A DNA stretch of 64,000 bases from Meiothermus sp. Pnk-1. Its GTDB lineage: Bacteria > Deinococcota > Deinococci > Deinococcales > Thermaceae. Position 1 is the stretch's first letter. The number at the start of each line of letters is the position of its first letter. The DNA lies in contig NZ_QKOB01000002.1 in assembly GCF_003226535.1 (NCBI RefSeq), positions 1-64,000 on the forward strand, read 5' to 3'. A model generated the notes under the pieces. The model made no database searches, was not told the DNA's origin, and saw nothing but the letters and a program-made list of their open reading frames with translations. Shown here one piece after another: positions 6,170 through 39,173 of this stretch. The position numbers and the translations under genes were made by a program.

Positions 6170-6871
6170 ATGACCCGTAATGCCTATGGCTGGCTTTACG
6201 ACAGGATCTATAGCTATAAGGATTACCGGGCCGAGGCCGGGGCTGTCCATGCGCTGATCCAGCGGGTAAATCCGGGGGCAAAAAGCTTGCTCGAGGTGGC
6301 CTGTGGCACCGGGAAGCACCTCGAGCACCTAAAAGCCCACTACCAGGCGGTCGGGCTCGACCTCGAGACAGAACAGCTCGAGGAGGCCCGCCGGCGCAAC
6401 CCCGAGGTTCCCTTCTACCAAGGGGATATGCGGACGTTCGACCTGGGGCGCACCTTCGACGCGGTGACCTGTTTGTTCAGCGCCATTGGATACGCAGGTG
6501 GCGTGGAGGGGCTCGAGGCGGCGGTATGCACGATGGCCCGCCACTTGAACCCCGGTGGGGTATTGTTGCTGGAGCCCTGGCTCTTGCCCGAAGTATGGCA
6601 GAATAACCGCCCCCACGCACTTTTTGTCGATGAACCCGACCTCAAGGTGGCCCGGATGAACGTGAGCCGCCAGGAGGGGCGCGAGAGCGTGCTCGAGTTC
6701 CATTACTTGATCGCCACCCCCCAAGGCGTCGAGAGCTTCACCGAGGAGTTGCGCCTGTTTTTGTTCACCCAGGAGGAGTACCTGGAGGCGTTTAGAAGGG
6801 CGGGGCTCGAGGTCGAACACGACCCCCAGGGGCTTACCGGGCGGGGGCTATATGTGGGGAAGAAAGCGTAG
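6170..6871 (+). CDS. class I SAM-dependent methyltransferase
   Basis: A 233-residue Rossmann-fold methyltransferase. Motif I is SLLEVACGTGKHLEHL (near residues 39-54), the ribose-binding acidic residue is in AVGLDLE, and motif II/III follow as FDAVTCLFSAIGY and LNPGGVLLLEPW. Overall it resembles the small-molecule N-methyltransferases of the DesVI/TylM1 type, but no sugar or antibiotic genes are nearby, so the substrate is unknown. It is flanked by a divergent prenyl synthase and the GNAT cluster leader and is probably a single-gene transcript. Confidence 0.85.
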   Translation: MTRNAYGWLYDRIYSYKDYRAEAGAVHALIQRVNPGAKSLLEVACGTGKHLEHLKAHYQAVGLDLETEQLEEARRRNPEVPFYQGDMRTFDLGRTFDAVTCLFSAIGYAGGVEGLEAAVCTMARHLNPGGVLLLEPWLLPEVWQNNRPHALFVDEPDLKVARMNVSRQEGRESVLEFHYLIATPQGVESFTEELRLFLFTQEEYLEAFRRAGLEVEHDPQGLTGRGLYVGKKA

Positions 6872-6937
6872 ATACCCCCGGCTTGCCAAGGGGGCAGCCT
6901 GTATGCGACTATGAGGGACCGAGGAGGTAAACCGCAG

Positions 6938-7024
6938 ATGATGATCCCGCATTGCTACCTATCTGCCGAAGCCTTGGGCGTCGTCGAAGCGGTATCCCTT
7001 CGGGTTGTTACGCTATCAACATAA
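6938..7024 (+). CDS. possible 28-residue leader peptide
   Basis: A short ORF (begins MMIPHCYLSAEALG, ends VVTLST, TAA stop) with a strong Shine-Dalgarno GAGGAGG at 6921-6927, ten bases upstream. It ends 16 bases before two competing hairpins and ~100 bases before the first GNAT gene. That arrangement suggests a regulatory leader. Against this, bases 6990-7002 (GTATCCCTTCGG) recur in the repeat-rich region near 39,180, so part of the ORF may be repeat debris. No similarity to known leader peptides is recognised. Confidence 0.35.
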   Translation: MMIPHCYLSAEALGVVEAVSLRVVTLST

Positions 7025-7040
7025 CGAAGTACGCGTATAT

Positions 7041-7081
7041 GTCCGGGGGGATACCAAAACCCCCGGACGTTGTTTTGGTAT
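7041..7081 (+). promoter_or_regulatory. two mutually exclusive hairpins before the GNAT operon
   Basis: Hairpin A pairs GTCCGGGGG (7041-7049) with CCCCCGGAC (7060-7068). Hairpin B pairs ATACCAAAAC (7051-7060) with GTTTTGGTAT (7072-7081). Both are perfect (9 and 10 bp), but the arms are interleaved in the order A5-B5-A3-B3, so they must either exclude each other or form a very tight pseudoknot. The GNAT Shine-Dalgarno lies 27 bases further on. An attenuation or translation switch is inferred. Confidence 0.5.
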
Positions 7082-7121
7082 GACCGAGCCACCCTGGACT
7101 CGAGCCCAAAGGAGCCCCCGC

Positions 7122-8096
7122 ATGAACCCCAACCTCAAAATTCGCCCCTTCGACTTCAGCGAAGCTGATTACGCCGCTTATGTGGCAATCTACAACGCCG
7201 CCCATCCCGAGGCGAACCGTACCGTGGAGAACCTGCGCTTTCTGGACCGGACGCGCAAACCCGAAGACCTGCCGACCCGTTTCCTGGCCGAAGACCAGGG
7301 CCGGGCGGTAGGGCTCGTCTCCTATGAGCGCCCCTTCTACAACCCAGGGCCAGACCGCCACCCCTCGCTCCGCTCGGCGAAACCACGCCTCGAGGTGCAT
7401 TACCGGGTGCGTCCCGGCTACGAGGCCCTCGCCGAGCCCTTGTGGGGTTTCCTGATGGAGCAGCTCAGGCCCCACACGCCGACCCTCCTGATGACCCAGG
7501 GCCGCGAGGACTGGCCCGAGGTGGCTTTTTACCTGCGCCAAGGGTTCCGCGAGCTAGACCGGATGTGGGCTTCCACCCTCGACCTCGAGACCTTCGACCC
7601 CAAGCCGCTCGAGCGCCCCCTAGCCCAAGGCATTACCCTCAGCACCCTGAGCGAGTTGCCCTACCGGGACAAGGCCTGGCTGCGCCAGCACTACGAACTC
7701 ATCATCGAACTGTTGCAAGGCGTGCCCTCCGCCGAACCGGTGGTGCCCTGGGACTTCGAGACCTGGCTCGAGCGGACCCTACAGAGTCCGGATTTACTCC
7801 CTGAGGGCTACTTCATCGCTGTGGAGGGGGAACGGCAGGTGGGAGTGTCCCAGCTCTGGAAGTCGAGCCGCCCGCAGACCCTCCAGACTGGGTTAACCGG
7901 GGTGCTGGCCTCCTACCGCCGCCGGGGAATCGCCTTGGCCCTCAAGCTCCAGGCCGCCCGCTTCGCCAAAGCCTATGGGGTGCGCTACCTCCGCACCAAT
8001 AACCACTCGGTCAATCGGCCCATGCTCGCTATCAACGAGGCGATGGGCTTTGTCAAGGAACCGGCCTTCGTCACCTTGGTGAAGGAGATGACATGA
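7122..8096 (+). CDS. GNAT acetyltransferase 1 (two-domain)
   Basis: A 324-residue protein with two GNAT folds in tandem, of which the C-terminal one is better conserved: the acetyl-CoA loop reads TGVLASYRRRGIALALKL and is followed by RTNNHSVNRPMLAINEAMGF. The N-terminal half has a weaker GNAT trace. The ATG at 7122 has AAAGGAG at 7108-7114. The gene is first of an overlapping trio (ATGA overlap with the next). It is a paralogue of GNAT 2, sharing GVSQLWK, TGLTGV and NRPMLAINEA blocks. Substrate unknown; a detoxifying small-molecule acetylase (mycothiol synthase-like architecture) is one possibility. Confidence 0.82.
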   Translation: MNPNLKIRPFDFSEADYAAYVAIYNAAHPEANRTVENLRFLDRTRKPEDLPTRFLAEDQGRAVGLVSYERPFYNPGPDRHPSLRSAKPRLEVHYRVRPGYEALAEPLWGFLMEQLRPHTPTLLMTQGREDWPEVAFYLRQGFRELDRMWASTLDLETFDPKPLERPLAQGITLSTLSELPYRDKAWLRQHYELIIELLQGVPSAEPVVPWDFETWLERTLQSPDLLPEGYFIAVEGERQVGVSQLWKSSRPQTLQTGLTGVLASYRRRGIALALKLQAARFAKAYGVRYLRTNNHSVNRPMLAINEAMGFVKEPAFVTLVKEMT

Positions 8097-9067
8097 CCGC
8101 CCAGCTGATGATTCGATTTTTCACCCAAGACGACTACCCGGCTATTGCCGAACTGCTCACTGCCGTTTGGCCCGAGTACCCCACCACCGCCGAGGCCATG
8201 GCCCACGATGACGGCACGAACCCCCAGTATATCCGCTGGAACCGCCTGGTGGCCCTGGAAGACGGCAAGATCGTCGGGCAGGCTGAGTATACCCAGTTTC
8301 TCGGCATGTACCACCCGCAGAAGTTTGGGCTGTGGGTCTCGGTGCACCCCCTGCACCGCCAACGCGGGATCGGAAAGCTGCTCTACGCCGCGGCGCTGAA
8401 GGCCCTCGAGCCCTACGACCCGATCTCGCTGCTCACTTCTACCCGCGAAGATCAAACCGGCGCGATTCACTGGCTCCACTTCCTCGGCTTCCAGGAGGTC
8501 AAACGCTACTGGGAATCGCGGCTGGAGGTGAATAGCTTCGACCCCGTGCCCTTCGCCGGGGCCGAGGAGAAGGTACGGCAGCACGGCCTGGAGATCACCA
8601 CGCTGGCCGAACTCGCCGCGCTCGAGCCGGAAACCTATCAGCGGAAGTTTTATGACCTATGGTGCGAGGTTCGAGAGGACGTCCCACGCCCCGAACCCGC
8701 CACCCCGGTGAGCTTCGAGGAGTTCCACAAGTGGACCTTCGAGAGCCCTCGGCTGTTGCCGAAAGGGACGTTTGTTGCGGTGGACCCCCGCACGGGAGCC
8801 TACGTGGGCCTGAGCCAGCTCTGGAAGCCAGCGGGCGGCGAGCACCTCGAGACCGGCCTAACCGGCGTCCGCCGAGCCTATCGCCGTAAGGGGCTGGCCT
8901 TGGCGATGAAGCTCCGCGCGGTGGAGTACGCCAAGCACGTAGGAGCCCCGGAGATCCGCACCGGGAACGAGTCCAACAACCGCCCGATGCTGGCCATCAA
9001 CGAGGCCCTGGGCTTCAAGAAACAGCCGGCCTGGATTGATTTTGTCAAGGTGCTGAAAGAAAAATGA
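8093..9067 (+). CDS. GNAT acetyltransferase 2 (two-domain)
   Basis: A 324-residue tandem-GNAT protein, same length as its upstream paralogue. Here both halves keep an acetyl-CoA loop: N-terminal VHPLHRQRGIGKLLYAAAL near residues 84-102, and C-terminal TGVRRAYRRKGLALAMKL followed by RTGNESNNRPMLAINEALGF. It overlaps the previous gene by ATGA, so translation is coupled. Its intact N-terminal CoA loop suggests it may be closer to the ancestral form than GNAT 1, in which that loop has decayed. Substrate not identifiable from sequence. Confidence 0.85.
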   Translation: MTAQLMIRFFTQDDYPAIAELLTAVWPEYPTTAEAMAHDDGTNPQYIRWNRLVALEDGKIVGQAEYTQFLGMYHPQKFGLWVSVHPLHRQRGIGKLLYAAALKALEPYDPISLLTSTREDQTGAIHWLHFLGFQEVKRYWESRLEVNSFDPVPFAGAEEKVRQHGLEITTLAELAALEPETYQRKFYDLWCEVREDVPRPEPATPVSFEEFHKWTFESPRLLPKGTFVAVDPRTGAYVGLSQLWKPAGGEHLETGLTGVRRAYRRKGLALAMKLRAVEYAKHVGAPEIRTGNESNNRPMLAINEALGFKKQPAWIDFVKVLKEK

Positions 9068-9951
9068 TGTTCACCTCGAGACCTTACCAACCCCCCGACC
9101 TCGAGCGCCTCTGCGCTTTCCTGGCGCGGTGCCACCAGATGTCAGCCGTGCCCGATGCGTTCATCCACCCCGGAGACCTGGTCTGGCGCACGCTCCAAGA
9201 CGCCCACTACCGGCCCGAGCGGGGGATGCGCGTCTGGGAAACGGGGGGTGAGACCGCGGGCTTTGTCTGGCAGAAACAGCTGAGCTTGGACTTCGCCGCA
9301 GCCCCTTGGCTGGCCCGGGAACAGCGGCGAGCGCTGATGGCCGCCATGCTGGCCTACGCCGAGCGGCAAGCGCGCGCCTGGGGCCTTGAGGGAAGGCTCT
9401 TCACCAGCGTCTCGGAGAACGACCGGGAGTCCGCCTCCGTCTTGGAGAGCGCCGGGTACGCGCGTGACGACGACGTCATGTACTCCCTCGAGCGTTCCCT
9501 GCGCGAAGAGATTCCCGCCCCTCAACTGGCCGAGGGCTTTGGGGTGCGCCACCCCGAAGCGCACGAACTCGCGGAGCGGGTGGAGCTACACCGCGAGGTC
9601 TGGCACCCCTCGAGGTTCACCCTGGAGAGCTATCTGAATATCCGCTCAGCCCCTGTTTACCGCCCTGACCTCGACCTGGTGACGCTGACCCCCGAGGGTC
9701 GGTTCGCCTCGTACTGCGTCGTCTGGTACGACCCCCTCAACCGGGTGGGCGAGTTCGAGCCGGTGGGAACCCGCAAAGCCTGGGAGCGCAGGGGGTTGGG
9801 CAAGGCCGTGCTCATGGAGGGCTTCCGGCGGCTGCGAAAGCTGGGGGCCAAGAAGGCCGTCGTCTATTGCTACGAGGACAACCTGGCCTTTTACCGATCG
9901 GCTGGGTTTGAGGAGTTCAACCGCTGGTGGGGGTTCAGCAAGCCGTTGTGA
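9064..9951 (+). CDS. GNAT acetyltransferase 3 (two-domain)
   Basis: A 295-residue protein with a more divergent tandem GNAT layout. The C-terminal domain is clear (GEFEPVGTRKAWERRGLGKAV, then KKAVVYCYEDNLAFYRSAGF). The N-terminal domain carries ENDRESASVLESAGY, typical of the end of a GNAT fold. The start overlaps GNAT 2 (ATGATG at 9064). Three consecutive overlapping acetyltransferases imply one transcript and possibly related substrates. No Shine-Dalgarno is needed given the overlap. Confidence 0.8.
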   Translation: MMFTSRPYQPPDLERLCAFLARCHQMSAVPDAFIHPGDLVWRTLQDAHYRPERGMRVWETGGETAGFVWQKQLSLDFAAAPWLAREQRRALMAAMLAYAERQARAWGLEGRLFTSVSENDRESASVLESAGYARDDDVMYSLERSLREEIPAPQLAEGFGVRHPEAHELAERVELHREVWHPSRFTLESYLNIRSAPVYRPDLDLVTLTPEGRFASYCVVWYDPLNRVGEFEPVGTRKAWERRGLGKAVLMEGFRRLRKLGAKKAVVYCYEDNLAFYRSAGFEEFNRWWGFSKPL

Positions 9952-10017: not shown

Positions 10018-11082
10018 ATGAGCTTTCCCTATCTCCAACTCGAGGGTGACCCCTACACCCAGGGGCTCACCCAAGGCCAACGGCTCGGGCCGCAGATCGG
10101 GCACAATCTGGAGGTCTACTTCCGCCGCTTTGAGGTGGAGGGAAAGCTGCACCGCAGGGCTGTACTCGAGCGCTCGGAGCGCTATCTGAAAGCCCTCGGC
10201 CGCCAAAACCCCGACTACTTCGCCGGAATGAAGGGCCTCGCCGACGGGGCGGGCTTCGACCTGCTGGAGATCGGAGCTCTGAATTTCCGCTACGAGATCC
10301 TCTATCACCAGTTCGCCCATGAGCCCCCCCAGGGCTGCACCGCCTTTGCCGTGCTGCCGAGCGCGAGCGCCGATGGGGCTTTGTGGATGGGGCAAAACTG
10401 GGACTGGATGATAGGCGTGAAGGGGGCCCTGCTCCACACCCGCCACCCCGACGGCCTCGAGACCCTCTCCTTCACCGAGGCGGGGATCTTCGGCGGGAAG
10501 ATCGGGATGAACTCTGCCGGGCTAGGGCTGTGCATCAACGGCCTGGTCTCCGCGGACGACGACTGGTCTCGGCTGGGCAAGCCCTTTCACCTGCGTACCT
10601 ACGAGGTGCTGCGTTCGCGCACCCTCGAAGAGGCCATCGCCAAGGCTACCGAGGAACCCCGTTCGGGCTCGGCCAATTTTCTCCTCGGTCAGGGCGAAAA
10701 GGCGGTGAACTTAGAGACTGCCCCCCATGCGCTGATCCGGCTCGAGGGGGAGCGCCTGGTCCACGCCAACCACTTCCTCGACCCCCAGCGGTACGGAGTC
10801 CGGCTCTCGCCGGTGGAGTGGTTGGACCGCTCCCATCACCGCCACCGCCGGCTAGAGGCGCTGATTGCCCAGAAGAAGCCGGGGCTCGAGGACTTCAAAG
10901 CGGCCCTCGCCGACGGCGAGGGCCACCCCTACGCGGTCTGCCGCTACCCCAGCCCGGAGGAGTTTGAGCTGGGCGAGCCCTACCAGACGGTGGCCTCAGT
11001 GATCATGAACCTGAACACGCGCGAGATGTGGATCTCGGACGGGCCGCCGGACCGGAACCCATACGAGCGGTACCGCTTCTGA
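10018..11082 (+). CDS. C45-family autoproteolytic acyltransferase/hydrolase
   Basis: A 354-residue Ntn-hydrolase of the peptidase C45 (isopenicillin N acyltransferase-like) family. The signature PQGCTAFAV holds the Gly-Cys bond where self-cleavage exposes the nucleophilic cysteine, and downstream are GQNWDWM, GGKIGMNSAGLGLCING and GSANFLLG, all typical. Family members hydrolyse or transfer acyl groups on amides; substrate unknown. Its neighbours on both sides are acetyltransferases, so an acyl-amide metabolism cluster is plausible. No signal peptide, hence cytoplasmic. Confidence 0.88.
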   Translation: MSFPYLQLEGDPYTQGLTQGQRLGPQIGHNLEVYFRRFEVEGKLHRRAVLERSERYLKALGRQNPDYFAGMKGLADGAGFDLLEIGALNFRYEILYHQFAHEPPQGCTAFAVLPSASADGALWMGQNWDWMIGVKGALLHTRHPDGLETLSFTEAGIFGGKIGMNSAGLGLCINGLVSADDDWSRLGKPFHLRTYEVLRSRTLEEAIAKATEEPRSGSANFLLGQGEKAVNLETAPHALIRLEGERLVHANHFLDPQRYGVRLSPVEWLDRSHHRHRRLEALIAQKKPGLEDFKAALADGEGHPYAVCRYPSPEEFELGEPYQTVASVIMNLNTREMWISDGPPDRNPYERYRF

Positions 11083-33898: not shown

Positions 33899-33910
33899 CG
33901 AGGTGATCGG

Positions 33911-33998
33911 CTAGGGGTGCCCCCGCGGGGGCTGAGAACAGGGCGAGCCCTGTAACCCTTGGAACCTGATCCGGTTAGTACCGGCGGAGGGAAGCCCG
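33911..33998 (+). promoter_or_regulatory. TPP riboswitch (THI box)
   Basis: Canonical TPP-binding leader: GGGGTGC (33914-33920), GGCTGAGA (33930-33937), an arm ACAGGGC-GAG-CCCTGT, ACCCTT then GAACCTGATCCGGTTAGTACC and GGCGGAGGGAAGC. It stands directly before thiE and controls the six-gene thi operon, lowering expression when thiamin diphosphate is plentiful. Confidence 0.97.
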
Positions 33999-34032
33999 TG
34001 AAAGTATCCCCACAACCCTACCCATACCCTTT

Positions 34033-39003: not shown

Positions 39004-39015
39004 GCCCTTTGTTTG

Positions 39016-39034
39016 CCCCCCTTAGCAAGGGGGG
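39016..39034. repeat. AGC-loop hairpin repeat
   Basis: CCCCCCTT (39016-39023), loop AGC, AAGGGGGG (39027-39034), then CTGGGGGGG; same plan as 21103-21123. Confidence 0.7.
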
Positions 39035-39139
39035 CTGGGGGGGATAAACCCTCCCCGCGCGCGGGGAGGGACGGGGAGGGGCAAACCACATGCCACTAGC
39101 CACGAGCCACAGGCCACGAGTCGTTCTTATACCAGATTC

Positions 39140-39173
39140 GGTTGGTTCGCCACCGAACGGTGGCGAACCAACC
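39140..39173. repeat. perfect long hairpin
   Basis: GGTTGGTTCGCCACCG (39140-39155), two-base loop AA, and the exact complement (39158-39173). Flanked by ATACCAGATTC on the left and CCGAAGGGATAC on the right; the latter 12-mer recurs, complemented, at ~6990-7002. Possibly the end of a decayed mobile element. Confidence 0.75.

Follow-up and report, generated by a model that had tools for sequence, protein, structure and literature searches.

Three acetyltransferase genes begin at position 7122 of the 64-kb stretch of DNA analysed here (the window), and the short segment in front of them raises the question of whether it controls these genes and, if so, through which RNA structures. In an initial annotation it was proposed that the position of a ribosome on a small open reading frame (ORF) decides which of two mutually exclusive stems is formed before the GNAT genes. 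The features on which that proposal was based, a 28-codon ORF with a strong Shine-Dalgarno (SD) sequence, followed at a distance of 16 nt by interleaved perfect stems of 9 and 10 bp, were confirmed at 6922–7081. Comparison with related genomes, described below, indicates that the interpretation was right in kind and wrong on the competing stem: the conserved competitor is a pairing of leader codons with the 5′ arm and loop of a terminator.

Leader ORF and upstream signals

The ORF occupies 6938–7024 of the plus strand (28 codons and a stop codon; product translated from the window, MMIPHCYLSAEALGVVEAVSLRVVTLST), and the SD sequence AGGAGGT (6922–6928, plus strand) lies nine bases 5′ of its ATG. 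Its assignment is based on the sequence and on ORFs found in matching places in all 14 copies of the leader recovered from the family. These have 23–28 codons, their SD, start and stop positions match, and the SD is strong throughout (AGGAGGT in 13 copies and AGGAAGT in the remaining one). Substitutions among the 14 copies showed no clear excess of synonymous changes, so the case for translation rests on the SD, the frame and the layout; judged from these, the ORF is probably a translated leader.

A putative promoter (6883–6912, plus strand) was located by alignment with relatives. It consists of TTGCCA at 6883–6888, 18 nt of spacer and an extended −10 element TGC-GACTAT, with the −10 at 6907–6912. 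The relatives carry a much better promoter, TGTGCTACACT, at the aligned place; the window's version is weak by itself and gave no match in a consensus scan. The short ORF lies between this element and the first GNAT gene. The 64-kb window holds a single instance, at the leader, of an SD combined with an ORF of 10–40 codons and, no more than 60 nt away, a GC hairpin with a T-rich tail; Markov-shuffled sequence gives 0.03 such composites on average.

A repeated 12-mer overlapping the leader, which had been thought to weaken the case, proved trivial, 12–13-mers being shared with unrelated stretches of the window. A dispersed repeat, named at that stage as a finding that would refute the proposal, is ruled out, as is a mobile element: the next best match of the leader region in the genome has E = 0.06, the segment has no second copy in genome or window, and the leader withstood this check. 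An 18-nt match at G000:C2:408554 was rejected, with no leader in its surroundings. A 91% match to window positions 6965–6997 (33 nt of the leader ORF; E 5e-6), antisense within a protein-coding gene of genome G002, is probably due to chance in GC-rich coding sequence.

Conservation of the leader in the Thermaceae

The source genome, that of a heat-loving, Meiothermus-like bacterium, shares its family with Meiothermus and Calidithermus, and visual inspection revealed this layout upstream of the Meiothermus orthologues of GNAT1 as well. A pattern scan raised the leaders to seven genomes, the window's included. A covariance model built from these seven, in which only the terminator was entered as structure, was searched over 50 Thermaceae genomes and returned a single strong match in each of 14 (E 1.5e-14 to 2e-38), half of these matches (7/14) independent finds outside the model-building set. 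Every one of the 14 leaders directly precedes GNAT1 or a RIO1-type kinase gene. Among the genomes bearing GNAT1 the leader is present in 13 of 17, with one more (G021) carrying a degenerate leader in which promoter and ORF are kept and the hairpin is lost. Three of the 17 (G004, G009 and G045) showed no leader and keep a TACATT or TACAGT promoter-like element. Genome G019 has the leader and RIO1 and no close GNAT1, and the Thermus genomes in the same search had neither a close GNAT1 nor a leader. The ORF, the terminator, the pairing between them and their place before the same genes are thereby established directly as conserved, and the ORF-plus-terminator module is, on this comparative ground, real.

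The only congener (G001) lacks the leader and most of GNAT1: a deletion at L113 (G001:C1:48300-49300), close to locus position 713, has joined the methyltransferase gene to the end of GNAT1, so that it runs into the last 39 GNAT1 codons.

In the window, too, a methyltransferase gene (6170–6871) stands upstream, ending only 50 nt 5′ of the leader SD, and the full leader RNA folds only moderately better than shuffles (z −1.5). Both points would suit a hairpin that merely serves as the constitutive terminator of that gene, behind an ORF that is a chance frame. This explanation is unlikely, because Meiothermus and G006 carry this promoter, ORF and hairpin with no such methyltransferase gene directly upstream, and because conservation of the leader tracks the GNAT and RIO1 genes. 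The retention of SD, ORF frame and arm position in 14 genomes likewise argues against a chance ORF.

Terminator, second stem and ORF-terminator pairing

The 9-bp stem forms a predicted intrinsic terminator before the structural genes. It is a perfect, GC-rich hairpin at 7041–7068 of the plus strand (arms 7041–7049 and 7060–7068, loop 7050–7059), reading GTCCGGGGG-GATACCAAAA-CCCCCGGAC, and is followed by the tail GTTGTTTT (7069–7076, plus strand). This tail is only moderately U-rich in the window, with a modest U-tract, and is T-rich in most copies. The hairpin is conserved with covariation: 88% of cells are paired, and the covariation score was 0.262 as against 0.150 for shuffled alignments (0/500). 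It is degenerate in G048, besides its loss in G021. A stricter terminator scan, with loops of at most 8 nt, misses the hairpin on account of its 10-nt loop.

The second stem of the initial annotation (7051–7060/7072–7081, spanning 7051–7081 of the plus strand; ATACCAAAAC/GTTTTGGTAT) is a perfect 10-bp stem interleaved with that of the terminator. Such arrangements are rare in the window: perfect stems of at least 9 bp enclosing no more than 25 nt number just 20, and stems of at least 8 bp interleave in only two pairs. The two stems being perfect and mutually exclusive there, a ribosome might be supposed to choose between them. However, in the alignment of copies the 10-bp stem is absent from the relatives, and its 3′ arm lies beyond the terminator, where polymerase arrives only once the termination point has been passed and the outcome is settled. 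A choice between these two stems is hence hardly credible, and a pseudoknot or switch composed of them was rejected on the same lack of conservation. What the check in relatives upheld was the ORF and the 9-bp stem, kept in 14 Thermaceae genomes, and with them the idea of a leader with exclusive structures before the GNAT genes; the 10-bp stem fell away.

A repeat search brought out a different partner for the terminator, missing from the initial annotation. The leader arm GGTATCCCTTCGG (6991–7003, plus strand; codons 18–22) pairs over 13 bp, two of them G-U, with 7043–7055 of the plus strand, a shared segment made up of the terminator 5′ arm and loop. In the alignment 83% of cells are paired, compared with at most 54% when the arms are slid. 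A shuffle control was moderate (20–59 of 500) because the columns vary little; single-sequence duplex energies were significant in some copies only (mean z −1.6), and RNAalifold supported the antiterminator region weakly. In every one of the 14 copies exactly 31 nt separate the start of the leader arm from the stop codon, despite ORF lengths that range over 23–28 codons. The strongest case is the window itself: GGTTTGCC in the ORF of relatives is replaced there by GGTATCCC, and GGCAAACC in their terminator by GGGATACC, with two positions altered on each side of the pairing; the window leader thereby has Ser in place of Cys and retains the pairing. These compensatory changes, together with the Cys-to-Ser replacement, suggest that the RNA pairing rather than the peptide has been kept.

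When the nascent RNA was folded ribosome-free up to the terminator loop, the antiterminator was predicted with P of at least 0.5 in 10 of the 14 copies, and a ribosome placed six codons before the stop abolished it in all 14. It was not predicted to form in G043 and G019 and was weak in G044 and G047. By the pairing and the folding predictions, a ribosome on the ORF can block the antiterminator, which shares sequence with the terminator. The complete RNA at equilibrium favours the terminator over the antiterminator in most copies; antitermination must therefore work kinetically. Two further structures were considered: 8-bp matches between the SD region and the leader arm, a candidate anti-antiterminator, were seen by eye in some Meiothermus copies and were inconsistent across the whole set, and a stem around the leader stop codon was suggestive in Meiothermus and mostly not significant by shuffles.

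Ribosome position and the proposed attenuation

The segment probably acts as a ribosome-mediated transcription attenuator, a reading that is well supported by comparison. In the model proposed here, in which the start site, in vivo termination, the inducer and the sense of the response are all inferred, transcription from the promoter just 5′ would give a short leader RNA carrying the 28-codon ORF and the intrinsic terminator. Codons 18–22 would pair with the terminator 5′ arm and loop, and this antiterminator could form before the terminator 3′ arm has been synthesised. A ribosome covers about 15 nt on each side of its P site, so the leader arm would be hidden by a ribosome standing anywhere from about codon 14 to the stop codon and left free by one halted earlier. 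A ribosome close behind RNA polymerase would then cover codons 18–22, allowing the terminator to fold and transcription to stop before the GNAT genes. A ribosome stalled within about the first 13 codons, or the failure of any ribosome to load, would leave the arm free for the antiterminator, with read-through into the GNAT operon. Coupled translation would accordingly mean termination, and an early halt or no start of translation would mean read-through. That an antiterminator, lying upstream, can form first is a general point made for vmlR (PMC9226507). Ribosome-targeting inhibitors, or translation stress of another kind, would be the natural inducers; by analogy with known leaders, translation inhibitors are probably the inducer, and induction of the GNAT genes by translation-targeting drugs is plausible.

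The same RNA logic would serve an amino-acid-sensing attenuator of the trp/his/ilv type, and the leader peptides are indeed frequent in Val and commonly contain Cys. That type is nevertheless highly improbable here: none of the 14 leader peptides contains a codon run, the common Cys has given way to another residue in both the window and G019, and the downstream genes are not biosynthetic. Alternatively, the signal could be a drug- or metabolite-dependent arrest of the ribosome by the nascent peptide near its end. The fixed distance from arm to stop codon would make ribosome position near the stop matter, and there is precedent in ToiL and MsrDL, which are thought to arrest near their ends (PMC12121999). 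Against this, the conserved leader residues fall largely within the arm and are explained by RNA pairing, the window swaps Cys for Ser while keeping that pairing, and a ribosome arrested late would tend to cover the arm, which promotes termination; we regard such an arrest as very doubtful. Attenuation relieved by an early halt of the ribosome remains the preferred reading.

Downstream genes and related leaders

The first gene proposed to be controlled, GNAT1 (7122–8096, plus strand), encodes a tandem GNAT acetyltransferase. It is followed on the same strand by GNAT2 (8093–9067), a second tandem GNAT gene overlapping it by 4 nt, and by GNAT3 (9064–9951), an acetyltransferase gene overlapping GNAT2 by 4 nt; an AAT-type acyltransferase gene lies 3′ of these (10018–11082). 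The structure model of GNAT1 is of high confidence (mean pLDDT 91). Among solved structures the best match is the Mycobacterium abscessus tandem GNAT MAB_4324 (7q3a), followed by other tandem GNATs, including a clavulanic-acid cluster protein and MshD, and more remotely by Eis. NCBIfam assigned no family to GNAT1, and the downstream tandem GNATs have no assigned resistance family. MAB_4324c is controlled directly by WhiB7, and its product, when purified, acetylates amikacin only mildly (PMC10727445). The likeness of GNAT1 to MAB_4324, taken with WhiB7 control of the latter, is suggestive, a parallel and not proof of drug modification.

A RIO1-like kinase gene was observed directly 3′ of the leader in five genomes (L030, L039, L076, L081 and L082), as against L079 and L083. 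In G046 the middle of the RIO1 gene is lost, so the ancestral order was probably leader-RIO1-GNAT1, and in G044 seemingly only the end of the gene remains; from these sequences, RIO1 has probably been lost more than once. In Calidithermus chliarophilus (G006:C3:1274575-1284971) about eight tandem-GNAT genes stand in a run, an expansion of the operon 3′ of the leader.

Among known systems, the whiB7 leader of actinobacteria likewise has an upstream ORF (uORF) and then an intrinsic terminator, its antiterminator uses overlapping uORF and terminator sequences as here, and among the members of its regulon are tandem GNATs, including MAB_4324c (PMC10727445), whose structure is the closest solved one to GNAT1. 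whiB7 encodes a transcription activator, whereas here the attenuator stands directly before the GNAT/RIO1 operon, and the likeness drawn here is one of design. The bmrB leader of bmrCD in Bacillus subtilis also controls an intrinsic terminator through a leader peptide and alternative stems; leader translation matters there, and several ribosome-targeting antibiotics induce (PMC4191407). It differs in its 53-codon leader, its place before an ABC exporter and its occurrence in Firmicutes, and also in that induction is abolished when bmrB is untranslated, while the simple model proposed here predicts read-through without translation (PMC4191407). The vmlR leader of B. subtilis shares the uORF, terminator and antiterminator, and is induced by early (start-codon) stalling, in line with the early-stall model; it differs in a 3-codon uORF, an anti-antiterminator hairpin and control of an ABC-F protein (PMC9226507). 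On sequence grounds the Thermaceae leader is probably an added case of this class of ribosome-mediated transcription attenuators (the whiB7, bmrB and vmlR kind), one without an Rfam family: when the window was searched with Rfam, no model matched the leader at the gathering score, and a search of 6870–7130 with E values up to 1 likewise found none. No description of such a leader in Meiothermus or other Thermaceae was found in the open-licence literature. The E. coli gene yjhQ encodes a GNAT-like protein. Its operon topAI-yjhQ is preceded by the uORF toiL, which senses several classes of ribosome-targeting antibiotics (PMC12121999).

Outside the Thermaceae, the phylum-wide search with the covariance model found only two leaders, in genomes G098 and G102 (E 6e-5 and 8e-4), which belong to another family of the order. 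In both, a short ORF and terminator precede an MsbA-type ABC exporter gene, itself followed by a second ABC-like gene. These leaders lie at 2026–2140 of the reverse complement of L106 (reverse strand) and at 1772–1900 of L107, with ORFs encoding MVSHYIIQDTPAALWERSACW and MTGFDHYHRLAPIDDGARGGSACL, each up to its stop codon. The end of the ORF again pairs with the terminator 5′ arm and loop, at about −17 kcal/mol, which points to the same attenuator design. Control of an exporter by such a leader is known from bmrCD of B. subtilis (PMC4191407).

Sensing of ribosome inhibition by leader-peptide attenuators has been described chiefly in Firmicutes, actinobacteria and enterobacteria. A conserved case in the Thermaceae would put the mechanism in another phylum, one from which Thermus ribosomes have become a standard for structural work on drug-stalled leaders. 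Relief of the terminator by a drug or stress would point to the role of the tandem GNATs and bacterial RIO1-like kinases. It can be suggested, tentatively, that in Meiothermus, Calidithermus and Allomeiothermus the leader senses translation stress in general and induces an undescribed stress or resistance module of a RIO1-type kinase and tandem GNATs; with this design also standing before ABC exporters elsewhere in the order, the phylum would then possess ribosome-sensing leaders of its own.

Elsewhere in the window, a cluster of strong perfect hairpins was observed at 39015–39173, including a 15-bp stem at 39140–39173, a TPP riboswitch lies at 33903–34009 of the plus strand, and the first part of a 16S rRNA gene, truncated at the edge of the window, occupies 1–168 of the minus strand.
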